Positions 1-51,688 of a stretch of DNA of 51,688 bases are shown here, in pieces. Position 1 is the stretch's first letter. Every line of letters begins with the position of its first letter. Both the position numbers and the translations under genes were made by a program. The notes under the pieces are model-generated. The model was not told where the DNA came from, did no database searches, and was given only the letters and a program-made list of their open reading frames with translations. The stretch spans positions 1 to 51,688 of the IMG/VR virus record IMGVR_UViG_3300042731_008732. One strand, given 5' to 3'. The stretch comes from a virus.

Positions 1-312
1 AAACTGCATGCCAGCAGCGAATTACGTACAGTTGGGAGAACCGAAGAGCAACTGTCTGCTTGGCGTCGCGATTTAAATCAAATGGCAGCCGAACTTTATA
101 TGTTAGCTAAAACTTACTCAAAACTTGAAGATTTAAAGCACGTTCCACGTTTGGGAACATTCCGGTATAGGGGAGAACCCTGTGTACACTGTTCATTCAA
201 AAATTGGTGCCGTACCGGCTTCGATGTTGGCTTGATGGATACCTTCACCAAAGAATCCAAATGGGAACCCTGGAACGATCCGGGTGCGGTGCAAGTCAAC
301 GAGCGATATTAA
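1..312 (+). CDS. Cas4/RecB-like PD-(D/E)XK nuclease, C-terminal part (continues from 50957)
   Basis: Open from base 1 in the frame that ends at base 51688, so it completes the gene beginning at 50957; the joined protein is 324 aa. This part holds residues about 222-324. It carries three cysteines, in CVHCSFKNWC at about residues 282, 285 and 291, which together with Cys15 of the N-terminal part reproduce the four-cysteine 4Fe-4S arrangement of Cas4/AddB-type nucleases. It is followed by a short zinc-ribbon ORF and the Sak4-like ATPase. Assigned as the exonuclease of a phage recombination module; the fold is seen by motif, the role is inferred. Confidence 0.9.
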   Translation, partial: KLHASSELRTVGRTEEQLSAWRRDLNQMAAELYMLAKTYSKLEDLKHVPRLGTFRYRGEPCVHCSFKNWCRTGFDVGLMDTFTKESKWEPWNDPGAVQVNERY

Positions 313-2866: not shown

Positions 2867-3175
2867 ATGAAATTACATTGTATTTGTATGAATCAACTTA
2901 ATGTAGTTGACGAGCCTGGAGATTATCTTTTTCCAACGGTTGAGCCTTGCGAACGTTGCCTTGAAAAAGCTAAGCAAAAAATTGTAGGTCCCTTAAAAGA
3001 AGTAACCGATTTTGACATACATACATACATTGACCAACAAGGTACCAATAGAATTAGACTTACCGCTCAAGTAGACGGACTCAAATTATCGTTTGTGGTA
3101 GAATTAGACTTATTGTTTGAAATAGTCGTTGAAGAAAAGAACTTTCTCGATAAGCAAAAAGGGGTGATTAAGTGA
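2867..3175 (+). CDS. hypothetical cysteine-pair protein, 102 aa
   Basis: SD GGAAGGGGGTG precedes the ATG. Cysteines at residues 5 and 7 and CERC near residue 29 could bind zinc; the C-terminal half is beta-rich. Its stop codon overlaps the GTG start of the polymerase fragment, so the two are translationally coupled. Function unknown. Confidence 0.6.
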   Translation: MKLHCICMNQLNVVDEPGDYLFPTVEPCERCLEKAKQKIVGPLKEVTDFDIHTYIDQQGTNRIRLTAQVDGLKLSFVVELDLLFEIVVEEKNFLDKQKGVIK

Positions 3176-5046
3176 ATTACACACCTTTTACGGGAGACGT
3201 TAATCCGTCTTTTGAAGGACCGTTGACGTCGAAAATATTAGTGGTGGCAGAGAGTCCATGGAACACTGAAATAGCAGCCGGTAGGCCCCTTTGTGGGCCT
3301 TCGGGAAACAAATTGAATTACTGGTTCCATCTAATCGGTTTAAATCGGCATGAAATGCGCATCGAGAATCTATATCCTTTCAAACCACCGAGAATTGAGC
3401 TTGATTCAGTAAAAATGGACGAACTGCTTCCTTGGATAAATAACTTACACGAACGTATAACAAACATGCCCAACTTAAACTTAATTGTAACAATGGGTAA
3501 CTATGCCACATTTGCCTTAACCGGAAAGGGGAAAATTAGGGCTGCAATTAGAAACGCTTTAAACTCATCCGACTTAACTTCAACCGAGTCGGAAAGAAAA
3601 GCAGGAATAACGCAATTAAGAGGTTCCATCTACGAATACATCGACTTAAACGGACGCAGTATCAAAGTAATGCCTACAATTCACCCTGCTGCGGTAACTC
3701 GAAGGGCAGTGTGGGAAAAGAGATGTTTAATTGACTGGACTAATATCAAAACAGAGTGTCAATTCCCGCAAATAGTTGATGTTCCAAGAAATACAATAAT
3801 AGATCCAACTGAACACGACGTAGAAATTTTCACAAAACAAGTTGAAAATAATTGTGAAGATTTGAAAGCCGCGGTTGACATCGAATGTTGGGGAAAGTCA
3901 TTATCTTGCGTAGGTTTTGCATTGACTCCGGTTGAAAGCATTACAATCCCAACATTAACTAAAGAACAATCAAGCACATTTTTACCTTACATCAAACGGC
4001 TTTGTGAATGTAAAGTACCGAAGATACTATGCAACGGGCTCTTTGACTGGTATTGGCTCGACGCTTACGACATCCAACTTGTCAATTACCGCAGTGACGT
4101 CCAATACGCTCATCACGCGCTTGATCCGATTGAAGAACACAGTTTAAACTTTCTATCGTCCATCTATACCAGATTTAATTATTGGAAAGACGAGGCGAAA
4201 GACGCAGAAGAGATAATTAAGTACGCATCAAAGGTAGACGCACTGTGGATTTACAATGGTTACGACTGTTGTGCTACTCGTGAAATCTGGACGGCGGTTG
4301 AAAAACAGCTGATTGAAGAAGGCATGATGGAATTTTATCAGCGTCATTATGCTGATTTACTTGAACCGCTCCATCGCATGTCGAGACATGGGACGAGAGT
4401 AGATGTTGCCGCTCAAAAAGAGTGGGCAAAACAATTGAAGATCGAAATGAAGGAAGCTCGAAATACCCTTGAAGAAGGAGCTGACTGTAATCTTTTTTCA
4501 ACGAAAAGCAAGAGTAAGTTTAGGGACCCTACAGACGCTGAATGGGATGAATTGATACTTGAAGGTGAAGTGAAGCACGATGCGGACGGTATACCAAAAC
4601 CTAAATATATCAACAAAGAAGTTCGCAATACTTTCGTTGAAAACGGCCTAACTTACATGATGTCCGGCAAAAACAAAGGTAAAATTCGATATTCTGTTGA
4701 AGAAGACCAAAAAGGCTTCTCCAAAGACAAGCTGCTACGTTTTTTCTACGGCAAACTTGGACTGCCGAAACAGCGAAAACGTGGTACAAACGGCAAAATG
4801 ACCGTCACACTTGATGAAGGAGCCATACACAAGTTGTGCGAAAAGTTTCCGGATAAGATTGGCGAATACGGTAAAATATTACTATCTTATAGAAGCCGCG
4901 AAAAGGAGTTACAGTACTTGAGTGGTGTCCAAGATAAAGACGGTAGAGTACGTTGTTCCTACAAATTTAATACTAAGGAAGGTAGATTGGCGAGCTCCAA
5001 AAACCCAATGAGGACCGGCATGAACATGCAAAATTTAAAGAGGTGA
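3172..5046 (+). CDS. DNA polymerase A, N-terminal half: UDG-like + 3'-5' exonuclease + palm start
   Basis: 624 aa, GTG start behind AAAGGGGTGA. Residues about 20-190 resemble family 4/5 uracil-DNA glycosylases (VVAESPW at 24-30, GRPLCGPSG at 37-45, TIHPAAVTR at 169-177), the fusion known from SPO1-type polymerases; the Fe-S cysteines are not evident. Residues about 230-370 are a DnaQ-like exonuclease with D236/E238 (VDIECWG), D292 (NGLFDW) and YNGYD (361-365). The thumb/palm region follows and ends with EGRLASSKNP...MNMQNLKR, the family A segment immediately before motif A, then a stop. All catalytic palm motifs are missing and occur in a separate gene at 9939. Functions presumably with that protein. 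Confidence 0.88.
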   Translation: MNYTPFTGDVNPSFEGPLTSKILVVAESPWNTEIAAGRPLCGPSGNKLNYWFHLIGLNRHEMRIENLYPFKPPRIELDSVKMDELLPWINNLHERITNMPNLNLIVTMGNYATFALTGKGKIRAAIRNALNSSDLTSTESERKAGITQLRGSIYEYIDLNGRSIKVMPTIHPAAVTRRAVWEKRCLIDWTNIKTECQFPQIVDVPRNTIIDPTEHDVEIFTKQVENNCEDLKAAVDIECWGKSLSCVGFALTPVESITIPTLTKEQSSTFLPYIKRLCECKVPKILCNGLFDWYWLDAYDIQLVNYRSDVQYAHHALDPIEEHSLNFLSSIYTRFNYWKDEAKDAEEIIKYASKVDALWIYNGYDCCATREIWTAVEKQLIEEGMMEFYQRHYADLLEPLHRMSRHGTRVDVAAQKEWAKQLKIEMKEARNTLEEGADCNLFSTKSKSKFRDPTDAEWDELILEGEVKHDADGIPKPKYINKEVRNTFVENGLTYMMSGKNKGKIRYSVEEDQKGFSKDKLLRFFYGKLGLPKQRKRGTNGKMTVTLDEGAIHKLCEKFPDKIGEYGKILLSYRSREKELQYLSGVQDKDGRVRCSYKFNTKEGRLASSKNPMRTGMNMQNLKR

Positions 5047-6941: not shown

Positions 6942-8861
6942 ATGACCGGGGACAACAATACACTTAGAATTGGCGCTTTGATTTTGGGTGCCTGGATTTC
7001 ATTCAGCAGTTGCATACTAACGTGTCGTCACATAATTTTGAGCAATAACGTCCCAACTGAGTTTGAAACATGGACCGCATACATAACGCTGATTTACATT
7101 ATAGCTAAAGTGTCCCTTGGTGGCATAGGAACAACTGCAGCCCAAGTATTCGGGGCTGTAATCTACCGTAAGACCGGGGAGGCTTACTACAATAGATTAT
7201 TCTGGGCAGCTACCACATTATCCATTACAGTATCAATTTTAGCCTATTACACCGATGAAAGTAAGTCGGCGGTCAATGCCAAATACTCAACAGCCCATTA
7301 TCAAGCGTTACAATCAATACAAGAAACTTTCAAAAAACGTGTCGAGGCTTTAACAAAGGAAAAGGAGGATTATTTAACAGGTGAGTATAAAAGAAAACGA
7401 GCCAAACATTATTACACAGTGGCAGAACGTGAGTTAGATAAACGAAAGGCTCAAATTAAAGCGGCTCAAGCAAAACTTGATAAAGCTTCCGAAGAATTGC
7501 TCAAATATCAATCAGGGCAAACAGAAAGCAAGACAGACCAAGTGACCGCCATAGGAATTTACTCCAAATTCACGAAAGACTCTTTAGTTTCTGTAGGAGC
7601 TTATGCTGAAACAAGGCACAATTGGTTCAAAACGGTTATGCCTTTATTAATGATGATAATGTTTTCTGTTATCCCTGACCTAATCGGACCGAAACTATTC
7701 GCCTATGGGGTCGTAGGAGCCGTAAAACGAAAGAAAAAACTCACTTTAATAGATAGATACTTTAACTTAATAGAGTTTGTAAAAACACTTCGTGAGGGAC
7801 GGTATGAACGTGTTAGCGAGGAAGTCGAAGAGCCTGAACCCGAACACATACCCACGCCGAATGAGGAGCAACAACAAATAACGAAACTTGAACGCCGGTC
7901 GGTTCGTGATTTGAACGTGAATGAATTAAAACTATTACTATCCCATTCACCCAACTTGGTGGACTCTATACCAACATTGAAAGGTCGATATTACGTAGAA
8001 GCCAGTCCGAACGCAGGTAAAACAACGTTCTTGCAGATGATGTTGCAAAAGGCTATTGAAAATGGTGAAATAAGTCCGGGAAAATGCATCTTACGCATCC
8101 ACGATTTAAAGCCGTTTGAACCGGGTAAGTGGCCCTCTTGGGCTGAAATCAAAGGTTCCGAATACAACATAGATGAAATTGTTGAATCGCTCGATGAAAT
8201 GCATAATTGGGCTAAGAATAAACTCCAAAAACTTCCTGTTTACATTATCCAAGACGAGCAATTGCAAATATCCGACGCATATCTTGAAAAGTACAAAGAG
8301 CCCGTTGGGAAAAAATATACGTGGGCGCTTACATTCGCTCGGGATTTAAACTATTCATTGGCAGTAGCGACTCAACTGGGCACGGCGGATGCGGATGGTA
8401 CACCAGGAAGAGCCACTTTAAGGAGCCGGTACGATATGCACATCTTTTTGATCTTCGACAAAATTGAAGATATCCGTTTCGCCTATGTAGATTTAGGTTA
8501 TAAAAAACGTTTTTTCAATTTACCAAAACAACCTAAACGGTGTCCGTTCCCAGTAGATAAAGAACGACATGTACCTGTGAAAACTCCCGTTAAAACACCT
8601 AAAAACGTAGTTCGTTTGGACGGGCAAAAGAGGGCTAAAAAGACTACCAAAACCCAGCCCGATTGGTTGGATAATTATTACAATAAAGCTACAAAGTTTC
8701 AGATAAGCGCCATAATGGAAAAACATGCGGCCGGAGAATCTCACAATCAAATAATAAAAACCGTATTCGCTTGTAAACCAACTCCGGCTAAACGTAAAAT
8801 AGTCAAAGCCGTTATAGAAAAAGGGAATATTAATGAAAGTAGGAAACTACGCAGCTCTTAA
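6942..8861 (+). CDS. membrane-anchored P-loop ATPase, HerA/FtsK/TraG-like
   Basis: 639 aa, SD GAGGTAAAAC. N-terminal membrane segments at about 10-33, 45-75 and 86-104, a charged coiled coil (about 120-195), another membrane segment (about 231-262), an acidic linker, then a cytoplasmic ATPase. Walker A is ASPNAGKTT (354-362); Walker B VYIIQDEQ has D438/E439; LAVATQ near 473-478 resembles the sensor strand of FtsK/VirB4/Zot-type pumps. The last 50 residues look like a helical DNA-binding tail of the kind seen in FtsK-like replicon proteins. Likely a DNA or protein translocation motor at the membrane; family assignment is inference. It lies between the two polymerase genes and a few kb before the relaxase/coupling pair. 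Confidence 0.7.
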   Translation: MTGDNNTLRIGALILGAWISFSSCILTCRHIILSNNVPTEFETWTAYITLIYIIAKVSLGGIGTTAAQVFGAVIYRKTGEAYYNRLFWAATTLSITVSILAYYTDESKSAVNAKYSTAHYQALQSIQETFKKRVEALTKEKEDYLTGEYKRKRAKHYYTVAERELDKRKAQIKAAQAKLDKASEELLKYQSGQTESKTDQVTAIGIYSKFTKDSLVSVGAYAETRHNWFKTVMPLLMMIMFSVIPDLIGPKLFAYGVVGAVKRKKKLTLIDRYFNLIEFVKTLREGRYERVSEEVEEPEPEHIPTPNEEQQQITKLERRSVRDLNVNELKLLLSHSPNLVDSIPTLKGRYYVEASPNAGKTTFLQMMLQKAIENGEISPGKCILRIHDLKPFEPGKWPSWAEIKGSEYNIDEIVESLDEMHNWAKNKLQKLPVYIIQDEQLQISDAYLEKYKEPVGKKYTWALTFARDLNYSLAVATQLGTADADGTPGRATLRSRYDMHIFLIFDKIEDIRFAYVDLGYKKRFFNLPKQPKRCPFPVDKERHVPVKTPVKTPKNVVRLDGQKRAKKTTKTQPDWLDNYYNKATKFQISAIMEKHAAGESHNQIIKTVFACKPTPAKRKIVKAVIEKGNINESRKLRSS

Positions 8862-9938: not shown

Positions 9939-10811
9939 ATGACTAAATTAAAATCAATAAGACAAACGTTTTTACCTGATGAAGGCTGTTTATTCGTTAA
10001 AACCGACTACAGTCAAATCGAGGACCGCATCGGTAAGATGTACTGTGGGACCGATAGGATGGTGTTGTTGGCAAACTCAAAACCTTGGGAATATGATGTC
10101 CACTCAGATAATGCCGTGTTGATATTCGGCAACGAAGTAATAGACCTTCCAAAGTTTAAATTCAAACTCTACCGTTACCTGGGCAAAAAAGTAGTCCATG
10201 CGTCTTGGAGAAAGATGGGCGGGAAAACGATGTCACAAGCGGTATCGAAGGATACAAACGGTGATGTTTACATGCATCCCGCAAGGTGTGATCGGCTTAT
10301 TAAAATTTTTTTAAATAAAAACCCTGAAATACAGGATATTTATTTCCCATATGTTAACAACCTCGTTTATTCAACCGGGGTGTTAACCAACTCATGGGGT
10401 AGACGTTACATTGTAAAGGGGATACGCATTGACGACGACGTCCTTCGAGGGTGTTATTCATACTTCATGCAATCCGAAGGGGCTGGTTGGACCAACCAGT
10501 ACCTTTTACTACCCGGCAACAAATATATGTTCGACAAGTACAATAAACCGTTAAATTTACAGATACACGATGAAGTCGTAGCGAGTGTCCCACCTGAAGG
10601 GTTGTATGATTATTGTGTTTATTTAAAAGCCGAAGGCGAGGTCGAGCGTGAAATACCGGCGGGTTCCGGGTTAAAGTTAAGCGTCCCACTTGGAATAACC
10701 ATATCCGACACTCTTTACGGCGGTCTTGAGTTTAAACGATTTCCTGAAGATAAAACTTTGTTTGAAAGCAAGGTCCAAGACTATTTTGGTGACTTATTGG
10801 GGAGACTCTAA
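9939..10811 (+). CDS. DNA polymerase A, C-terminal half: catalytic palm and fingers
   Basis: 290 aa with SD AAAGGGG. Begins at the segment that follows QNLKR in family A polymerases (KSIRQTFLPDEG) and carries motif A VKTDYSQIE (D23), a motif B region KKVVHASWRKMGG (83-95) and motif C LQIHDEVV (H210, D211, E212). In motif B the usual Tyr-Gly of the O-helix (NYG-type in SPO1-like enzymes) reads WRK, which is unusual. No exonuclease or thumb, so it must assemble with the 3172-5046 product to form a complete polymerase. Nothing is missing across the split; no intein or intron remnant is visible at either edge. Confidence 0.88.
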   Translation: MTKLKSIRQTFLPDEGCLFVKTDYSQIEDRIGKMYCGTDRMVLLANSKPWEYDVHSDNAVLIFGNEVIDLPKFKFKLYRYLGKKVVHASWRKMGGKTMSQAVSKDTNGDVYMHPARCDRLIKIFLNKNPEIQDIYFPYVNNLVYSTGVLTNSWGRRYIVKGIRIDDDVLRGCYSYFMQSEGAGWTNQYLLLPGNKYMFDKYNKPLNLQIHDEVVASVPPEGLYDYCVYLKAEGEVEREIPAGSGLKLSVPLGITISDTLYGGLEFKRFPEDKTLFESKVQDYFGDLLGRL

Positions 10812-12304: not shown

Positions 12305-13088
12305 AAAACCGACGATTCTCGTCCCGGAAGGAATTAAGGCTTTCACACCAGAGTGGAAGCCTTTTTTATTGGACTCAAAGAAGACATTAATAATTAATGA
12401 TTTGCATGTTCGTTATCACGATAGGGAGGCTGTCGAATTAGCACTTGAAACCGGATACAAGCAAGGTGTCGATTGTGTGTTGATAAATGGGGATCTAAAT
12501 GATTTTTATTCAATTTCGAGGTGGGAAAAAGACCCAACTAAAAGGGACTTCGGGGAGGAAGTTGAGACAACTCAATACATCCTCCAATCAATTCGACTTG
12601 GCTTCGGTAAAGTGAGGATTATTTTGAAATGTGGAAACCATGAAGACCGCTATAAAAAGAAAATAATGGATAAATTACCCGAATTGTTAAATGTTCCATA
12701 CTTCAATTATGAGTCAGTAATCGGAGCTGAAAGATATGGAGTTGAGGTTATTACGGAGAAAATACCAGTTAAAATTGGTAAATTGAACGTAATTCATGGT
12801 CATGAACTAAGAGGCTATGGAACTGTGAATCCCGCGCGGTCACTTTACCTAAAAACTAAAACTCATACTTTGTCGGGACACTACCACAGAACGAGTGAGC
12901 ACATCGAACGCGACCTCGATGATGAAGTCGTAGGTTGCTGGTCGACCGGATGTCTTTGTGATCTTCATCCAGATTGGATGCCGGTCAATAATTGGAACCA
13001 CGGCTTTGCTATCGTCGACTTACTTGATGAGGAAAGCGGTGAATATTCAGTACGTAACTATAAAATAATAGAAGGGAAATTGTTTTGA
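12297..13088 (+). CDS. calcineurin-like metallophosphoesterase
   Basis: 263 aa from ATG 12297 (SD GGGGGAGT). Shows the five metal-binding blocks in order: NDLH (34-37), NGDLND (64-69), CGNHED (about 105-110), IHGHE (about 165) and SGHYHR (about 195). Phage enzymes of this family include phosphodiesterases and protein phosphatases; position among replication genes suggests a nucleic-acid role, but the substrate cannot be told. Confidence 0.88.
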   Translation: MAKKPTILVPEGIKAFTPEWKPFLLDSKKTLIINDLHVRYHDREAVELALETGYKQGVDCVLINGDLNDFYSISRWEKDPTKRDFGEEVETTQYILQSIRLGFGKVRIILKCGNHEDRYKKKIMDKLPELLNVPYFNYESVIGAERYGVEVITEKIPVKIGKLNVIHGHELRGYGTVNPARSLYLKTKTHTLSGHYHRTSEHIERDLDDEVVGCWSTGCLCDLHPDWMPVNNWNHGFAIVDLLDEESGEYSVRNYKIIEGKLF

Positions 13089-13270
13089 GTGAATACATTG
13101 AGACAAACTCAAAGATAACTTTAATCAACTTACATAAAAAAGTGGAACAGCAAACTAAAATGCTTTGCCGGATTGCCGAAGCTTTAGAAAACATGGTGAA
13201 AGTTTCCGATTTCGATGAATGGTTGATAGACGACATCCACGAAATTTACCTGGACGTAGAAGACTTGTAA
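13085..13270 (+). CDS. hypothetical helical protein, 61 aa
   Basis: TTG start overlapping the previous stop, SD AAGGGAA. Two helices; the first (about 10-45) is heptad-like and could form a coiled coil, the C-terminus is acidic. Directly precedes the relaxase by 2 nt, so it could be an accessory relaxosome factor, but this is only positional. Confidence 0.5.
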   Translation: MSEYIETNSKITLINLHKKVEQQTKMLCRIAEALENMVKVSDFDEWLIDDIHEIYLDVEDL

Positions 13271-13272
13271 CA

Positions 13273-14028
13273 ATGGCTATCTACCAATTTACAGTAAACA
13301 CACTAAACAAGGCCGCCGGTCATTCAGCGGCCAATTTTTTCATTTACATCGCAAGGGAGTGTCAATACCGAGAAAAAGGAGGTCTTACTTTTTCTCAATC
13401 CGGGAACATGCCTCCGTGGGCGGTGGATAAACCGAGAAAGTATTGGCAGTCTGCAGACAAATGGGAGCGTTCAAATGGACGCCTTGGGAAGATATTCCAA
13501 TACTCACTACCGAGGGAAAGTTGTGCGGCTTTCAATGAAATGATGGTAGATGAATTGGCCGAACAAGCTACCGGTCAGCTAAAGCTGCCCTATTCGCTTG
13601 CCGTCCACGTTAACGACCCAAACAACCCTCATTGTCATATGGTAGTCAGTGAACGAATGAACGATGAAATTGAACGACATCCAAGACAATGGTTTAAACG
13701 TTACAATCCGGATAACCCTGATAGAGGAGGTGCAAAGAAGACTAATATATTGAAGCCAAGGAGTTGGTTGTTGATGATACGAGAAAAATGGGCTGATATT
13801 TGCAATAAATATCTGGAGAAGGAAGGATTCAGCGTTAGAGTTAGCCATAAATCTTATAAAGATAGAGGGATCAATAAAGTTTCTGCAATTCATTATGGTA
13901 AAAATGTGTGGGCGTTACATAAAAAAGGGGAAACAACAAGGTTCCATGAAATAAACAAACAAATTGAAATCGAAAATTATAGTTCAATGGCCCTCAATTA
14001 CACCCGGAACAGAGAAAGGGAAAGATGA
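13273..14028 (+). CDS. MobA/MobL-family relaxase
   Basis: 251 aa from ATG 13273. Starts MAIYQFTVN like MobA/MobL nickases. Likely catalytic tyrosine Y25 (FIYIARE), the family block GRLGKIFQYSLPRE (69-82), and the metal-binding histidines H112 and HCH (120-122) in NNPHCHMVVSER. The later RVSHKSYKDRG and HYGKNVWALHKKG blocks also match the family. Only the nuclease domain is present, with no primase or helicase domain. Relaxases nick at oriT and stay covalently attached to the transferred strand. Its stop overlaps the coupling-protein start (ATGA). Finding one inside a tailed-phage genome is unusual. Confidence 0.88.
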   Translation: MAIYQFTVNTLNKAAGHSAANFFIYIARECQYREKGGLTFSQSGNMPPWAVDKPRKYWQSADKWERSNGRLGKIFQYSLPRESCAAFNEMMVDELAEQATGQLKLPYSLAVHVNDPNNPHCHMVVSERMNDEIERHPRQWFKRYNPDNPDRGGAKKTNILKPRSWLLMIREKWADICNKYLEKEGFSVRVSHKSYKDRGINKVSAIHYGKNVWALHKKGETTRFHEINKQIEIENYSSMALNYTRNRERER

Positions 14029-15419
14029 TGTTTTGGGGCAGAAACAAACACTCTACAAGTCAAGGGACAGCTGAGTTTAGTCGGGTAACAGGAGTCACAC
14101 CGACTGGTGAAAACCTAATCTTTGGGCGGTTGTTAGGAGGAAGCTTTCGGTATCCGTATGTTGGAATTGAACCGGAAAAGCATGCTTTGACGGTGGCTGG
14201 AACACGAGGTGGCAAAGGGACCACGTTGATAATAAACAATCTGCTGACTTACCGTGGTTCAGTGGTCGTCATTGACCCGAAGGGTGAGAATGCCGCTATT
14301 ACGGCGAGGGCAAGGGCTGCTATGGGTCAAAACGTATTATTACTTGACCCTTGGGGTGTTGTCGAAAAGCGTTATGGCGAAGATTCATTCCCAATTGCAA
14401 GCTACAACATCTTGGAAGAGCTTGATATAAACTCATCGGACTATGTCGATGATCTAACATATAAAACAAATGCTTTGATATTAAAACAGTCACAAGATCC
14501 CCATTGGGACAATTCGGCAAGGGCTCTACTGAGTGGCTTGATAGATTTTTCACTGCGCAAAGGTTGGAAGGATATATCGAACGTTCGTCAAATACTTTGT
14601 CTACCAAATCTGGTTCCGGTAGCAAGTGAAGCTCTTAACAATATGCCGGGTGACAGCATAGCTTGCAGACGTTTAAGTCAATTTTTACAAGACGACAGCC
14701 GTGAAAATAACAGTATTCTATCATCCGCCAGGCAACAAACATTATTCATTGACAGCCCGATACTTGCTAACAATATGTCGGGTAAATCAACATTTAAAAT
14801 GGAGGATTTAACAAGAGAAGCAACACTTTACATAGTATTACCAGTTGATAAAATAACCAGCTACGGCAGATGGCTCCGTCTGCTATTGAGCGACATCATC
14901 AAGACACTTGCAAGGCATCCAAGGACAATTCATCCAAAGCCGGTTATGTTTCTTGATGAATTCGGCACAATCGGGGCACTGGAACCCATTAGACAAGCCT
15001 ACGGACTGATGGCCGGTTTAAATATGTTCCTATGGGTATTCTTGCAGGATTTAAATCAACTATCGAGGGATTACCCGAACGACTGGAGGACGTTTATATC
15101 TAATAGCCAAGCGGTTTCTATCTATTCTGCCATGGACTTGAAAACCGGCCAACATTTCGCAGAAATGCTTGGACGGAAAACAATGTCCATACCCTCGACC
15201 ACTTATAGCCGACACCCTGGTGAGTTGCTCGGTTCCAAAACGGGTAAAACATTTTCATATCAAGGTAGGCACTTGATGACCGCCGATGAAATACGGATGC
15301 TTCCAAGTGATGAGGGGCTTTTAATGACCTCTGGATACAATACGAAATTCAAAAAGAATCCGTATTATCTTGATAAAGCGTTAATGAAATTGGCTCGAAA
15401 AGATCCACATTACAATTAA
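14025..15419 (+). CDS. VirD4/TraG-type coupling protein lacking the membrane anchor
   Basis: 464 aa. Walker A AGTRGGKGTT (58-67), the following VVVIDPKGENAA (81-91), Walker B VMFLDEFGTIG (307-317, D311/E312) and a C-terminal KNPYYLD block match type IV coupling proteins closely. It begins at the segment equivalent to the HGSARWA block of VirD4, so the N-terminal transmembrane helices are absent. Coupling proteins deliver relaxase-DNA complexes to a type IV secretion channel; no such channel is encoded here. Translationally coupled to the relaxase. A partner could be the membrane ATPase at 6942, but that is speculative. Confidence 0.88.
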   Translation: MMFWGRNKHSTSQGTAEFSRVTGVTPTGENLIFGRLLGGSFRYPYVGIEPEKHALTVAGTRGGKGTTLIINNLLTYRGSVVVIDPKGENAAITARARAAMGQNVLLLDPWGVVEKRYGEDSFPIASYNILEELDINSSDYVDDLTYKTNALILKQSQDPHWDNSARALLSGLIDFSLRKGWKDISNVRQILCLPNLVPVASEALNNMPGDSIACRRLSQFLQDDSRENNSILSSARQQTLFIDSPILANNMSGKSTFKMEDLTREATLYIVLPVDKITSYGRWLRLLLSDIIKTLARHPRTIHPKPVMFLDEFGTIGALEPIRQAYGLMAGLNMFLWVFLQDLNQLSRDYPNDWRTFISNSQAVSIYSAMDLKTGQHFAEMLGRKTMSIPSTTYSRHPGELLGSKTGKTFSYQGRHLMTADEIRMLPSDEGLLMTSGYNTKFKKNPYYLDKALMKLARKDPHYN

Positions 15420-15427
15420 GGAGGTTT

Positions 15428-16411
15428 ATGACGCAAACATTAACAGACGTGATTAAAGAGCTTAAGCAAGTCCAGCGGGATTTGGCTAAGATGAGTAAAC
15501 AAATCAATGAAATGAAAGGAATAAATTTCGATGAACGAAAGGGAAATGACCGCGCAGGAAAAGTTGCAGGAAACGTCAACGACTTTGGTAAAAGTGGCGA
15601 AGAACCTGGAGTCTATTACGGAGAGTATGTTGACTATAATAGCGGAGACCAACAAAGACAAATGCGAGTCACCGAAGCTGCCCCTCTATGTAAGGTTGGC
15701 CCATATTCTACTCATAAGCGTGTTGTCGATGATGGCGTTACCAACCGCTTTGATGATGCTGGAGTTTCTGGCAAGATCGCTGAAAGGCTAAACAAAGTAG
15801 CTAAAGTTTCATCCCACGGTTATCATGTTTTGCATAAGGGGCCGGGAAACAGGCAAGTCACCGCCAAATTTGACGATATAATAAACAACTTGGAAAAAGA
15901 TTTGCCGGACGGTAAATATTTCAGCGTTGGATTGATGCGGAAAGGTGATCTTTTTGTAAAACGGAAAAAGAATATGACGAAGCCGGAAACGATTGCCTTC
16001 ATATCGAATGAGTTAAAAAACGGTAATGGTGTTGAAAACAGTCTGTCGGTTACGGAAACTATTCCATCTCCCATTAAAAGAGTGGCTACTTTGTTGAAGA
16101 AGGCGTTGTTTCCGTTGGAAAACAAGGTAGAGAATGCCATGGGTCGAATGGCATTTAGATCGTGGGTTGTAGAGTCTGTCCCGCAGCCTGATGCACGGCA
16201 CATTCTGCAGGCTTTTAAAGAACTGGGTAAGAGTGAGTTTAAATCTGACCGAAATGTGCGGAGTTGGATGGGAAGGAATATGCATCGTGATCCGAGAGGG
16301 ACGGCTTGTGCATTAAAAGCTTTGGCGGCTTGTGAAGGCGTGAGTAAGCCGTGGGAGTTTTTGAATCAAATTAAAAAAACTGTAGATAAACACTCCGAAA
16401 GGGGTAGGTAA
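15428..16411 (+). CDS. hypothetical protein following the coupling protein, 327 aa
   Basis: SD AAGGAGG precedes the ATG 8 nt after the coupling-protein stop. Residues 1-32 are heptad-like; residues 35-120 are Gly/Asp-rich and overlap a second open frame (15531-15791); residues about 120-327 are basic, with Lys/Arg-rich helices. No family recognised. Because the 35-120 part looks atypical, the true product may be two pieces or start later than shown. Operon position suggests a link to the relaxase/coupling pair. Confidence 0.55.
   Translation: MTQTLTDVIKELKQVQRDLAKMSKQINEMKGINFDERKGNDRAGKVAGNVNDFGKSGEEPGVYYGEYVDYNSGDQQRQMRVTEAAPLCKVGPYSTHKRVVDDGVTNRFDDAGVSGKIAERLNKVAKVSSHGYHVLHKGPGNRQVTAKFDDIINNLEKDLPDGKYFSVGLMRKGDLFVKRKKNMTKPETIAFISNELKNGNGVENSLSVTETIPSPIKRVATLLKKALFPLENKVENAMGRMAFRSWVVESVPQPDARHILQAFKELGKSEFKSDRNVRSWMGRNMHRDPRGTACALKALAACEGVSKPWEFLNQIKKTVDKHSERGR
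15531..15791 (+). CDS. possible embedded membrane protein, 86 aa, overlapping frame
   Basis: Lies entirely inside the 327-aa gene in another frame. ATG has AAAGGA about 10 nt upstream. The product has an amphipathic N-terminal helix (about 5-40) and a strongly hydrophobic segment (about 52-80), a pattern unlikely in a random frame. It ends while the host frame stays open. Could be a true nested gene, or the real gene with the outer frame open by chance. Confidence 0.45.
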   Translation: MNEREMTAQEKLQETSTTLVKVAKNLESITESMLTIIAETNKDKCESPKLPLYVRLAHILLISVLSMMALPTALMMLEFLARSLKG

Positions 16412-16592: not shown

Positions 16593-16622
16593 AAAAGGGG
16601 TAAATAATTAACCAAAAAGAAA

Positions 16623-16649
16623 CCCCCGATGCTCTGACAACATCGGGGG
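16623..16649. terminator. hairpin terminator between convergent arms
   Basis: CCCCCGATG and CATCGGGGG pair perfectly (9 bp) around a 9-nt loop. On the minus strand it is followed by TTTCTTTTT, a good terminator tail for the late transcript; on the plus strand the tail is weaker. It lies between the last plus gene and the last minus gene. Confidence 0.85.
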
Positions 16650-16749
16650 AACCACTCATCCTTATTTTACTCTTCTATTTTTTAAAATCCCAAAAACGTT
16701 ACCTATAAGCAAACCTTCCTTTTCACCTGGTTAAAAAATAAACAGCGAA

Positions 16750-38043: not shown

Positions 38044-38691
38044 TTAATTTTGTTCGAACTTCAATCTTTGTCTGTAATTGGTTACCTTTTCCTTGATTAA
38101 GTGCGCCGGACACCCGGTTGACCTTAGGTATTTTGCGTATTCCTTCAACTCCCTATCGAAGCCTCTTTGTTTCGTGGTCTTTGGGGCCATACCTACAATG
38201 GTCGCCAAAGAATCAACTAAGTCTTTCGTTTTTGCTGTTGGGAAACCTCTTATCTCTTGAGCTAATTCGCCGGTTTTGTCAAGAATGAACAACCTGCCTT
38301 CGCTTATGACCGGTTCCAATGCTGTTCTAATACGGTACTCCTTTTTAACGCCTCTTGGTTGATAAATGGGCAGGAACCTTGCCCGTTTACCGAAACGTTG
38401 GATTCCGGCATCCCTAACGATGGCCCCGAAAAGAACCTGCATACCGTTGGCTTCTATCCCATACCGGTATGGTTTGTATTTTGCATAGGCGTCCAGGATT
38501 AAATCCCGGAATTTGGAGGTACCGACTCTACCGGCCCATTCATGGATCACGAACCAACGGGAATATGCATCCCTGGCACATACCATTATCGTTTGCCGGG
38601 CGGCTGTTTTCCTTTTTACGACAGCCTCTTCTCCGGCCGCCAAATCCGAGAAGGCATAGATTTCCATTTTGGTAGAGTCATATACCTCCAT
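38044..38691 (-). CDS. large terminase, nuclease domain (separate gene), 215 aa
   Basis: Carries the RNase H-like nuclease of TerL: D16 (FSDLAAGE), E80 (GIEANG), and the DLVDSLA block (D157, D160). No ATPase. The matching ATPase is a separate gene at 38956-40317, with a holin-like gene in between. Nuclease cleaves concatemeric DNA at the end of packaging; it must work with the separately encoded motor. Confidence 0.85.
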   Translation of the reverse strand: MEVYDSTKMEIYAFSDLAAGEEAVVKRKTAARQTIMVCARDAYSRWFVIHEWAGRVGTSKFRDLILDAYAKYKPYRYGIEANGMQVLFGAIVRDAGIQRFGKRARFLPIYQPRGVKKEYRIRTALEPVISEGRLFILDKTGELAQEIRGFPTAKTKDLVDSLATIVGMAPKTTKQRGFDRELKEYAKYLRSTGCPAHLIKEKVTNYRQRLKFEQN

Positions 38692-38695
38692 TTAA

Positions 38696-38935
38696 TTACC
38701 TGCCTTCGTCGTCTTCACCGTCGATTTCGTCAAGCATTTCAAGTATTTTAGGTTTGACGATTGCAATGATTGGGATAATGATGCCGCCGAGACCGAAACT
38801 AACTTTCGGCACCAGGGTGGCCAACAGGGCGAAGGCCGCTTCTACCAACAAGACTGAAGCGTCTTCGGCTACATTCAACCCTTTATTCCTTGCAATTTCG
38901 TTGATTTCCTTTTTAAGTTCATCACTCAATTTCAT
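38696..38935 (-). CDS. holin-like small membrane protein, 79 aa
   Basis: Charged N-terminal helix, two hydrophobic segments (about 27-42 and 47-60) separated by a short turn, acidic C-terminus: a class II holin-like outline. Sits between the two terminase genes, 4 nt before the nuclease gene. No endolysin is adjacent; lysis role is inferred. Confidence 0.55.
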   Translation of the reverse strand: MKLSDELKKEINEIARNKGLNVAEDASVLLVEAAFALLATLVPKVSFGLGGIIIPIIAIVKPKILEMLDEIDGEDDEGR

Positions 38936-38955
38936 TACCTTTCCCTTTCACCATA

Positions 38956-40317
38956 TTAATAACGTTTTGCCCTTAAGTAGGCGGTTCTACTCGCAAGTGC
39001 GTCCAACATACCTGCATTCAACTTCGTTCCCCTTTTAATAAGGGGTCTATCACTGTAGTCTCTTTCTACTTCCTTTACATCTAATGATTTTTCCAAGGCA
39101 TCGTCTATATCCGGCAGCCTTTCCCACATAATTTGGTCGTTTACGAAGCGGAACTCTCGGACGTCATCAAGGTTAAAATCAACCAAATTGGGGTCCGCGG
39201 CGTTGTTCATATAGAGGAGGAAAAACATGTGTTTGTGGTAATGCATCAATTCGGCAACCGATTCCTTCGTATGCTTTTCCGGCCACAACACTTTACCGTT
39301 CCGGATTATTTGATGGAATTTTTCATCAATCACTTCAACACTTGGATCAGTATCTATTATGTCACTATATAAATCGTAAACAGCCCAACGAGTGCCTATT
39401 ATGAATTCGAGTCCATATAATCCGGATTCCTTCTCATAACTGTCGAGCAACGCACGACTTGCTTTATGCCATTCAATCGCATTTGCCATGACGGTATCTG
39501 ATCGACTTGCTTCCAATGACACGAGGTCGTCCTTTATCATGACATTGGGACGTGTCCCGGTTACAGCCCCATCGGTACCCTTGGCCCAAATAGTGGGGTC
39601 CGGCCACTCATTCAATCGAGGGAAGATAGCCGCCTTCTGGCTCCACACAGGACTTTCCCTCTTTGCATTTTTCCAACAAATATGAGGCCAAAGAGAGCGA
39701 AAAACAAGGTTGTCGTCATGAACGGACTTTAACACCCTTAAATTCTTCTCGGCCATGTCTTGAGTTTCTCCGGCAAGTAAGATGCGGCACTCGCTACCTT
39801 GGATACCAGGGAAATACATGTTGGTATCAGCTGGTTGGATTATAATATGAAGAGGCAACCCACCACTGACAATGGCGGTTTTAGCGTGTTCTCTCGGCAT
39901 TAAAGTCAACTTGTGAAACGGGGGTGTTAATTGTTGGAAGTCGCAAACCGGTTTATGGAGACTTAGAGTAAGGAAGTGCCTATTGAGTATACCTTTACAG
40001 AAAAAATAAAGTGAACGTTCGCCCGCTTTTTTGATGCGGACGATAAATTCACCTTCCTGATGATCAGCGCCAGCTTGCCGGGGTAGCCCATTTTCGTCAA
40101 CTACGACTTCCCGCATCAAATAGTCAATAGGCCCACGTTTGGCCCGTGCCGCAAACGCTTCCCTCTTCTTGATGATATCGGAGTAGTCTTTTTTCTTCTT
40201 CTTGGTTTTTGCGGGGGCTACTCGTTGGGCAAGGCTTTCACCCCCGCTGGGGTGAGCAACAAGAGGGACACCAGGCTTGGCTTGTTGCTCGGATTTTTTG
40301 GAAGGCTTCTTACTCAT
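38956..40317 (-). CDS. large terminase, ATPase domain (separate gene), 453 aa
   Basis: Walker A PREHAKT (141-147, adenine-side motif upstream), Walker B VMIKDDLV (D263/D264), and coupling motif GTRW (308-311) in TerL order, then LWPEK near 350. The protein ends about where the nuclease should begin. Nuclease residues are absent and lie in the 38044-38691 gene. Overlaps the small terminase by 8 bp. Motor that translocates DNA into the prohead. Confidence 0.88.
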   Translation of the reverse strand: MSKKPSKKSEQQAKPGVPLVAHPSGGESLAQRVAPAKTKKKKKDYSDIIKKREAFAARAKRGPIDYLMREVVVDENGLPRQAGADHQEGEFIVRIKKAGERSLYFFCKGILNRHFLTLSLHKPVCDFQQLTPPFHKLTLMPREHAKTAIVSGGLPLHIIIQPADTNMYFPGIQGSECRILLAGETQDMAEKNLRVLKSVHDDNLVFRSLWPHICWKNAKRESPVWSQKAAIFPRLNEWPDPTIWAKGTDGAVTGTRPNVMIKDDLVSLEASRSDTVMANAIEWHKASRALLDSYEKESGLYGLEFIIGTRWAVYDLYSDIIDTDPSVEVIDEKFHQIIRNGKVLWPEKHTKESVAELMHYHKHMFFLLYMNNAADPNLVDFNLDDVREFRFVNDQIMWERLPDIDDALEKSLDVKEVERDYSDRPLIKRGTKLNAGMLDALASRTAYLRAKRY

Positions 40318-40969: not shown

Positions 40970-41340
40970 GCAAAGGTGTTCACAAACCGGACGGTATGAT
41001 CGACCACAAAGTGAACACTCCGTGGGAAGCCCGATGGCTTTTAATGAGATTTGATATGGATATTGCCAATAGATTCAACGGCTTCGACTGCCGGTCCCCG
41101 CCAGTCTCGCCTTCGCTTTATCTCCTGATTACATTGATAAACAGGTAGATCAAAAAATAGTGTGAGCATGTAAGAGGGTCTTCTGTACATTTAGATTGAC
41201 GCTTGGGGGGTCCCCCGGCCTTCGTCCATCTCGCAAGTGCGTTGTTTGCCATGTGCATTGCATACCTGGACGGAATGGCACGTCTGTTGCATGTAGTGAG
41301 ACAGGAATGTCCCATTCATTTGCATCTTGCAAAAAGTGGG

Positions 41341-41442
41341 ACACAATTGACTCATTCGCAGTTTGCAAACACTTTCTCTCGTTTTGTCAACCTTCTTTAC
41401 ACCACTGTCAACCTTCTTTATGTAATGAGACACAATTGACTC
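41341..41442. repeat. two interleaved direct-repeat pairs
   Basis: ACACAATTGACTC occurs exactly at 41341-41353 and 41430-41442; between them TGTCAACCTTCTTTA occurs at 41385-41399 and 41406-41420, exactly 21 bp apart (two helical turns). The inner pair also presents TTGACA on the minus strand. Spacing suggests a protein-binding site. Confidence 0.65.
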
Positions 41443-41648
41443 GACCCAACTCCCAGCCCAATTTCGCAAATCAGAGTTATTGAAAACCTCTCAGGGCCAC
41501 ACAGTGCGACGTCCATGTTAATGTCTGTAGGTAGGTATAGGTCAAGACGTAATCGTGCTACTGTGAGCCTGTCCCTCGACCAGACAGCCCTTTTTGGCTC
41601 ACAACACCCACATTATTTCCCACCATCACTCAATAGCAGCCCGATATG

Positions 41649-42197
41649 TCCTGATTCCTTCCTGGAATGTCCTGGCACCACCAGGATACCATTTTCCGTA
41701 ATCATTCCGGCAGTTTAAGTGCGATTTCTCCGGCAATATATCCTGGTTTTCAAAAGTAGTGATTTGCAATGATAACACAGGTTTACATGCTGATATATCC
41801 TGTTTTGAGCCTTTTGGTCGAAAAAGGATAAAATGGATCAAAAAATCCAAAAAAGAAAAAACGGAAAAAAAAATCATAAAAAGTTCTCATTTTTCTTACT
41901 TAAAAAATACTAAAACTATAAAATACTCTATAACTTATTAATATTATTATATATTATTAATTATCAAAGTGAGATTTGTGAATATAGAAAAATTTCGCTA
42001 TTAGAATATTTTGATATTTCGTTTTCGCTGAAAAACTCAAAAACAGGATATAATGACATCTAAAGTACCGGAATAATTACATATCACTACTTCCGACAGA
42101 CCAGGATATATTAAGGACAAATTGCTGTTTTCCGCTTTATTATCACGTGCTTACGATATCCTGCCGGTAACAGGATACTCCAGGATAAACCAGGATA
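41649..42197. repeat. iteron-like CAGGATA array, putative replication origin
   Basis: Nine exact CAGGATA/TATCCTG heptamers: plus orientation at 41682, 42044, 42102, 42171, 42181 and 42191; minus orientation at 41739, 41796 and 42157. Shorter TCCTG(G) copies lie at 41649, 41660 and 41670. The last three are spaced exactly 10 bp. Copies flank an AT-rich core (about 41820-42060). This organisation resembles iteron origins of plasmids and some phages; initiator not identified. Confidence 0.65.
41716..41723 (+). other. possible nic-site core (TAAGTGCG), candidate oriT
   Basis: TAAGTGCG matches the core of IncQ/R1162-type nic sites used by MobA relaxases. It is flanked by a repeated CCGGCA (41707 and 41730) and lies within the iteron region. 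An 8-base match is suggestive only. Confidence 0.25.
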
Positions 42198-42268
42198 AGC
42201 CACCATCTCAATGTGGTTCTGTCATATTTGACAGAAATGACCCGAACGTAAACTGTCAAATAAAACAG

Positions 42269-42297
42269 TTGACAATATTGATAATCTTGGTTATCAT
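42269..42297 (+). promoter_or_regulatory. early promoter 1 with palindromic operator
   Basis: TTGACA (42269-42274), 17-nt spacer, TATCAT (42292-42297). The -10 lies within the perfect palindrome TTATCATGATAA (42291-42302), which recurs in variant form at three other early promoters. Drives the gene at 42420 and probably those after it. Confidence 0.75.
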
Positions 42298-42419
42298 GAT
42301 AAACATATACAATCCATCATCATGCTAACGACGCCCGACCGGGAGTAAGAGGGAAACGTCGACGGGAAACCGGTAATTGCGCTCACACTTAAACCACCAC
42401 CAAAAACAAGGAGAAAGTG

Positions 42420-50956: not shown

Positions 50957-51688
50957 ATGGCGTTTAACTTCGACAATTCAAAGATCGAGAAGGCAACATG
51001 TCCGGCCGCCTTCGTAGCAAGCAGTGTCCACAACCGGTCGGGTATCAATCAATTACCCTGGGCTGAGTTGGGAAATGCAGTACATAAAGCTCTCGAACAT
51101 TACTATACCAACAACGATTACACGGGGGCCCTCGAACTACTTGCAAATCTTTACGACGAAATAATCCCTGTTGGAACAGTTCCCGAAGTTGATCATATGT
51201 TCAAAAAGGAAGTCCTTGATAATGTCGATGCTTATTTGACCAATAATCCAATTCACAGTCTACCTTTCTTTCCCATATCCATGGAACGCACAATCGGAGT
51301 CAGACTAAGAGACCTTTCCAGAATTTTTGGTCAAACTGTTACTTTTTGGTTCAAGCAGGATATGCTTGTTGAAGAAAAGACATCAGGAGCATATGCCGTT
51401 TTGGACCACAAGACACGGTGGGGGAGAATTACAGACTACTGGCTTGATAAATTCAATCATTGCTCCCAATTCACAGGTTACATTTGGGGGTCAAGACAGG
51501 CAGCTCCAAAACATCGTCGCGTTCAAAACAAGGTTTACGTTAACTTAATACAAATGGCTAAACTACCGAATTCAGAGAGAAAGTGTAAAACCCACAAGAT
51601 GAAGTATTGCGAGTGCAGAAAACTGCATGCCAGCAGCGAATTACGTACAGTTGGGAGAACCGAAGAGCAACTGTCTGCTTGGCGTCGC
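50957..51688 (+). CDS. Cas4/RecB-like PD-(D/E)XK nuclease, N-terminal part (continues at base 1)
   Basis: Starts at ATG 50957 directly after the RHH-like gene and is open to the window end; resumes at base 1. Visible nuclease residues: Cys15 (ATCPAAF), H43 (NAVHKALEHYY), D135 (KQDMLVEE), D150 and K152 (VLDHKT), and Q171/Y175 (QFTGYIWG). With three C-terminal cysteines this is the Cas4/AddB iron-sulphur nuclease plan. Likely generates single strands for the Sak4/SSB recombination genes that follow. Confidence 0.9.
   Translation, partial: MAFNFDNSKIEKATCPAAFVASSVHNRSGINQLPWAELGNAVHKALEHYYTNNDYTGALELLANLYDEIIPVGTVPEVDHMFKKEVLDNVDAYLTNNPIHSLPFFPISMERTIGVRLRDLSRIFGQTVTFWFKQDMLVEEKTSGAYAVLDHKTRWGRITDYWLDKFNHCSQFTGYIWGSRQAAPKHRRVQNKVYVNLIQMAKLPNSERKCKTHKMKYCECRKLHASSELRTVGRTEEQLSAWRR
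51620..51688. repeat. 69-bp terminal duplicate of bases 1-69 (circular closure)
   Basis: The final 69 bases are identical to the first 69, and the reading frame of the nuclease is continuous across the join. This is the overlap expected from a circular (or circularly permuted) genome assembled as a line. Confidence 0.9.

Follow-up and report, generated by a model that had tools for sequence, protein, structure and literature searches.

Phages and conjugative plasmids are usually regarded as separate DNA-transfer routes, and the locus described here raises the question of what a relaxase and a coupling protein of the conjugation type are doing in the genome of a tailed phage. The sequence analysed, called the window below, is the whole of IMG/VR record IMGVR_UViG_3300042731_008732 (51,688 bases).

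The window is a complete tailed-phage genome

The window is a complete podovirus-like tailed-phage genome, and its identity as a phage is secure. An exact 69-bp direct repeat was found at both contig ends, indicating that the contig closes as a circle and that the genome is probably complete.

1..69, no strand: terminal repeat, copy 1 (exact 69-bp direct repeat)
51620..51688, no strand: terminal repeat, copy 2 (exact 69-bp direct repeat)

The portal matched the SU10 type (1.8e-17) as well as phrog_332, an SU10-type adaptor gene was found besides it, the split large terminase corresponded to phrog_38, and the capsid/protease family phrog_133/4523 was matched. Tail fibre families were matched more weakly, so that the portal, terminase, capsid and tail genes listed in an initial annotation of this DNA were all recovered, the last at lower strength. 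The genome consists of two arms: a minus-strand arm with the structural genes (~41 to 17 kb) and a plus-strand arm with the early/replication genes, which extends from 42.4 kb through the contig ends to 16.6 kb. The GC skew switches at ~42 kb and ~16.5 kb. Among named phages, only distant terminase relatives were recovered, such as VpV262, SIO1 and Celeribacter phage P12053L. The three closest syntenic relatives were found by an alignment-based terminase scan (G002, TerL 41% identical to that of the window) and a capsid scan (G011, capsid 77% and TerL 59% identical; G012, capsid 73% and TerL 64% identical).

The large terminase of the window occupies two genes (38956-40317 and 38044-38691; span 38044-40317) with a 79-aa gene in between. 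G011 and G012 have the same split together with the small gene, and phage MW202554 has a similar layout of three genes, indicating a lineage trait. The terminase gene of MW202554 (L010:9804-11456) contains a large in-frame, intein-like insertion, which begins with Cys and ends with SGYLSRNC. DNA polymerase A is also divided between two genes (3172-5046 and 9939-10811), one for a UDG-plus-exonuclease protein and the other for a polymerase protein; the two parts are ~5 kb apart in the window and adjacent in G002. A 639-aa coiled-coil protein without a family is encoded in the early operon (6942-8861) and is kept in G011 and G012 (27-30%).

Pfam scans of the window proteins, which include many small ORFs of no known family, gave no match to Rep, ParA/B or integrase, and no lysogeny or plasmid maintenance genes were seen in the window. 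The plasmid half of the "mobilizable phage-plasmid" that had been proposed as the simplest hypothesis was therefore not supported. Among the window proteins scanned, none matched the Pfam families of the type IV secretion system (T4SS) channel; a relaxase without T4SS families of its own is what would be expected for a hitchhiker, i.e. a mobilisable element.

An IncQ-type relaxase with an altered motif II

13273..14028, plus strand: MOBQ (IncQ/MobA-type) relaxase, 251 aa, stand-alone relaxase domain

The protein matched Pfam MobA_MobL at 8.9e-25 (88.2 bits, against a curated cut-off of 26.7) and, by phmmer, R1162 minMobA (2ns6) at 1.2e-49 over residues 2-185. Its closest relaxases are IncQ mobilisation proteins, with ~41% identity and 98-100% of the protein covered. 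When its AF2 model was compared with 2ns6, the R1162 MobA crystal structure, an HUH relaxase fold was recovered (E 1.1e-20, TMt 0.93, rmsd 1.9). The catalytic residues of R1162 MobA are Y25, E74, E76, H112, H120 and H122 (PMC6856555). The motif I tyrosine, Y25 (codon 13345), and the motif III histidines, H112, H120 and H122 (codons 13606, 13630 and 13636), are kept in the phage protein, in agreement with the MobA/MobL relaxase with Y25 and a metal motif that had been read from the sequence.

In motif II, I74 and Q76 replace E74 and E76 of R1162 in a gap-free alignment (GRLFKEIEFALP versus GRLGKIFQYSLP). We surveyed MobA/MobL homologues of plasmids and bacterial genomes covering this position: residue 74 was Glu or Asp in all complete homologues but one (L086, Lys), and residue 76 varied. 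Since position 74 is acidic in nearly all homologues surveyed, the loss of the acid is unusual and probably functionally important; since E74I lies two base changes from GAA, it is not a single sequencing error. Inactive relaxase residues had been named in the initial annotation as evidence that would count against its reading, and the alignment divides on this point, with E74 replaced by I but Y25 and the three histidines kept.

A coupling protein without a membrane segment

14025..15419, plus strand: VirD4/TraG-type coupling protein (T4CP) ATPase, 464 aa, Walker motifs intact

The relaxase and T4CP ORFs lie on the plus strand and overlap by ATGA. The T4CP matched PF02534 at 1.7e-59 and TraG-D_C at 1.6e-20, and contains a Walker A motif (GTRGGKGT, residue 59), the sequence VVVIDPKGEN (residue 80) and a Walker B motif (PVMFLDEF, residue 306), which confirms the earlier claim of an ATGA-overlapping VirD4/TraG protein with full ATPase motifs. 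The closest T4CPs, at ~36% (36-40% identity), are those of small MOBQ plasmids of Alphaproteobacteria. The phage protein starts just ahead of the ATPase core and is missing the N-terminal membrane region of its homologues; neither a hydrophobic segment (transmembrane domain, TMD) in the T4CP nor an in-frame start upstream was found, whereas, among homologues, an N-terminal hydrophobic segment was seen in two plasmid proteins and an additional N-terminal region in four viral ones. The predicted model of the T4CP was of modest quality (pLDDT 61) and was left out of the evidence. TMD-less T4CPs are a recognised class and may pair with a membrane partner, but TrwB, PcfC and CloDF13 MobB are non-functional when the TMD is deleted (PMC7431656).

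With Glu74 lost and the membrane anchor missing, any mobilisation activity of the pair is at best altered. These two departures from active forms lower the mobilisation hypothesis and make it worth testing whether the pair interferes with conjugation instead. As a decoy, it would stop resident plasmids from conjugating. A relaxase capable of binding but of very little cutting, together with a soluble ATPase that joins, or competes with, the coupling protein of the helper, would be dominant-negative parts, and phage DNA or host resources would be spared from the plasmid. The E74I substitution and the absence of a TMD, with the fold and the Walker motifs kept, are the expected look of a dominant-negative pair. 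Moreover, a chimeric T4CP was negatively dominant over native T4CPs (PMC7431656), and the plasmid proteins PifC and Osa are reported to serve as weapons against the coupling proteins of rivals (PMC5696584). However, no phage example was found in the literature searched, a decoy would need no oriT-like site, and early-operon co-expression with replication genes fits mobilisation and interference alike. Overall, we consider a decoy role quite unlikely, but a serious rival to mobilisation.

The pair lies in an insert that is absent from relatives

The pair belongs to an insert of ~3.3 kb that occupies the 3′ end of the early operon (13085-16411), with the following neighbours.

12306..13088, plus strand: metallophosphoesterase, left flank of the insert; kept in G011 (48%)
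13085..13270, plus strand: 61-aa ORF between the metallophosphoesterase and the relaxase, forming the left end of the insert; matches nothing in G011 or G012
15428..16411, plus strand: 327-aa ORF without a family, in the operon of the relaxase and T4CP; strong Shine-Dalgarno sequence AAGGAGG
15531..15791, plus strand: 86-aa ORF in the +1 frame within the 327-aa ORF; one C-terminal TM segment
16413..16592, plus strand: 59-aa coiled-coil gene marking the right edge of the insert; matches the 59-aa coiled-coil gene of G011 in position, not in sequence
16622..16650, no strand: terminator-like hairpin ending the early operon; similar GC-rich hairpin in the same place in G011

The operon is tight, running from DNA polymerase and primase through the metallophosphoesterase, the pair, the 327-aa ORF and the 59-aa coiled-coil gene to the terminator. 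In G011, the metallophosphoesterase is directly followed by the 59-aa coiled-coil gene and the terminator, the same elements that flank the insert in the window; as G011 keeps this arrangement without the insert, the insert can be delimited to 13085-16411. Other genes occupy this site in G002. The relaxase and the T4CP are absent from all three closest syntenic relatives (G011, G012 and G002), indicating that the pair is accessory cargo. Single-sequence scans of IMG/VR with the relaxase, the T4CP and the terminase gave no match, and an alignment-based relaxase scan of IMG/VR gave no relative.

Searches of plasmids, phages, Pfam, PHROGs and NCBIfam gave no significant match to the 327-aa ORF. 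The 86-aa ORF resembles IncQ MobB by architecture alone; MobB, too, lies in the +1 frame downstream of the relaxase domain. A MobB HMM placed it at rank 1 of 904 (E 0.35) and a broader profile at rank 4 (E 0.35-0.77 overall), and with such weak E values and the drop in rank its homology to MobB is unproven. An early strong signal of dual coding in this ORF came only from a lack of stops and was dropped as evidence.

The codon scores of the pair were 0.113 and 0.108, the phage mean being 0.165 (sd 0.064), and both composition and codon usage of the insert match the phage, indicating that the cassette is a long resident rather than a fresh insertion. Because both insert edges adjoin phage genes placed as in G011 and the composition is phage-like, a chimeric assembly is unlikely.

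These data bear on whether the pair has any present function, since a plasmid fragment inserted at a permissive cargo site could simply be decaying there as a passenger. Absence from the three relatives, the clean empty site in G011 and the other genes at this site in G002 agree with such an origin, as do the losses of the catalytic Glu, the TMD and the oriT hairpin (see below). On the other hand, the ORFs are intact, ATGA-coupled and provided with ribosome sites inside an operon, Y25 and all three histidines are kept, matching the composition and codon use of the phage takes time, and useless DNA is usually lost by phages. In our assessment a functionless passenger is unlikely, but, like the decoy role, a serious rival to mobilisation. 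The possibility that the block is missing from close relatives, which the initial annotation had set against its own proposal, was realised in G011, G012 and G002, but the intact ORFs and phage-like codon usage oppose simple decay.

A candidate oriT core in the presumed origin region

41100..42415, no strand: non-coding, AT-rich, repeat-rich region between the divergent arms, with CAGGATA repeats and the GC-skew minimum
42364..42388, plus strand: candidate oriT core GGGAAACCGGTAATTGCGCTCACAC, 20/25 to the IncQ1 oriT core

The region between the arms contains CAGGATA repeats in both orientations, an AT-rich stretch and TGTCAACCTTCTTTA direct repeats, and comparable non-coding regions with different repeat sequences are present in G011 and G012. 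It is likely to be the replication origin and control region. IncQ oriTs read CAGTTTCTCGAAGAGAAACCGGTAAGTGCGCCCTCCC, and the 20/25 match to their core at 42364-42388 was reached by none of 300 shuffles; the match to the 37-nt full-length IncQ oriT was not above shuffles (23, against a shuffle maximum of 25). MOBQ loci share an inverted repeat followed by TAAG(T/C)GNGC, whereas the phage site has no inverted-repeat partner arm (hairpin) and reads TAAT at the usual TAAG. A standard MOBQ oriT (TAAG core with hairpin) was not found across the whole window. Matches to TAAGTGCG at 38098 and 41716 were also considered as oriT and rejected, as their number is about that expected by chance. The 42364-42388 site is absent from G011, G012 and G002, which are without the relaxase. 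A search for an oriT near the pair or at 41-42 kb, as suggested in the initial annotation, thus yielded an IncQ-like core, but one with neither hairpin nor TAAG, and we regard it as a candidate oriT only.

The position of this site, at the GC-skew minimum within the presumed origin region, would also suit a pair recruited to the DNA metabolism of the phage. The relaxase would then nick the origin or process ends and the ATPase would pump DNA, resulting in rolling-circle replication or movement of single-stranded DNA inside the cell. Within the replication operon, the pair follows the polymerase, primase/helicase and phosphoesterase genes, and the ATPase has no membrane segment, both of which fit such a role. 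Relatives with the same polymerase and primase nevertheless replicate without the pair, which is therefore not essential to that mode of replication, and we regard recruitment as improbable, the least likely of the functions considered.

Proposed function of the pair

We conclude that the pair is, very probably, a captured mobilisation cassette of the IncQ/MOBQ type. For its present function we favour helper-dependent DNA mobilisation, with a probability of about 0.38. This proposal builds on what both genes were shown to be, on their position in the operon, on the relative with an empty site and on the lack of any detected T4SS family. A MOBQ cassette with its own T4CP would have been acquired as cargo by one lineage of podoviruses with SU10-type portals, entering the early operon at its 3′ end. 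The relaxase would bind and nick the IncQ-like site at ~42380 in the origin region, and the soluble coupling ATPase, perhaps tethered through a small membrane protein (the 86-aa ORF product or a host or helper protein), would deliver the strand carrying the relaxase to the T4SS of a conjugative element resident in the cell. In this way the phage genome could pass to a neighbouring cell without a virion.

The IncQ-like relaxase and its fold, the T4CP resembling those of MOBQ plasmids, the lack of a T4SS, the oriT-like core and the intact, ATGA-coupled ORFs make mobilisation plausible; the change of Glu74 to Ile, the T4CP without a TMD, the oriT candidate without hairpin or TAAG, and the absence of the pair from all relatives found leave it unproven. 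The suggestion that a resident type IV system could mobilise the phage genome therefore stands in part: the module is of a genuine plasmid mobilisation type and an oriT-like core lies in the region, but E74I and the missing TMD speak against it. Moreover, with no lysogeny or plasmid maintenance genes seen, it is hard to see how mobilisation would benefit a lytic phage.

More broadly, it is doubtful that a phage without detectable lysogeny genes uses a modified mobilisation pair, made up of a relaxase lacking the motif II glutamate and a soluble coupling ATPase, either for the passage of its genome through the conjugation channel of a resident element or for jamming such a channel. Each of these outcomes, if true, would be a new kind of phage-plasmid interaction: a phage genome mobilised by conjugation could reach cells without the phage receptor, and a phage that jams conjugation would possess a new weapon against plasmids.

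Comparison with known systems

The phage relaxase shares 41-45% identity in the relaxase domain with MobA of IncQ plasmids (RSF1010/R1162, MOBQ1), as well as the fold, Y25 and H112/H120/H122, but it is a stand-alone protein of 251 aa with no primase fusion and carries E74I and E76Q. In contrast to the IncQ system, the phage has no standard oriT, and a coupling protein gene follows that of the relaxase. Small alphaproteobacterial MOBQ plasmids, such as a Tabrizicola piscis plasmid and Sphingobium pSY2, combine MOBQ typing with a VirD4-type T4CP (36-40% identity), as the phage does, and in Tabrizicola (L002) MobQ, a mobilisation protein and a T4CP lie side by side. Unlike the phage protein, the T4CPs of these plasmids have an N-terminal hydrophobic segment, and the plasmids carry replication and partition genes. 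CloDF13 is a mobilisable plasmid that encodes a relaxase and its own T4CP, MobB, and uses the channel of a helper (PMC7431656); it resembles the phage in having both proteins, but its relaxase is MOBC, its TMD is essential and it has no phage genes.

Among phage-plasmids, mob or oriT has been reported in only two P1-like elements (PMC10879196). These also join a phage genome with conjugation-related functions, but are temperate and maintained as plasmids, whereas no Rep or Par was found in the window phage, which belongs to another lineage. No report of a phage without lysogeny genes carrying such a pair was found in the open-access literature. A T4CP scan of IMG/VR yielded four contigs, two of which (G588, loci L088/L092-L093, and G590, loci L090/L094-L096) encode a PF03432 relaxase and a T4CP with an N-terminal extension alongside portal, terminase or tape-measure genes of tailed phages; they also carry similar integrase-like genes, which by eye resemble tyrosine integrases. 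By their gene content, both are apparent mobilisable temperate phages. They differ from the window in the relaxase type, the T4CP extension and the integrase-like gene, and belong to different phage lineages, indicating that the combination of a relaxase and a coupling protein recurs in tailed-phage contigs and suggesting a pattern that can be surveyed and tested.
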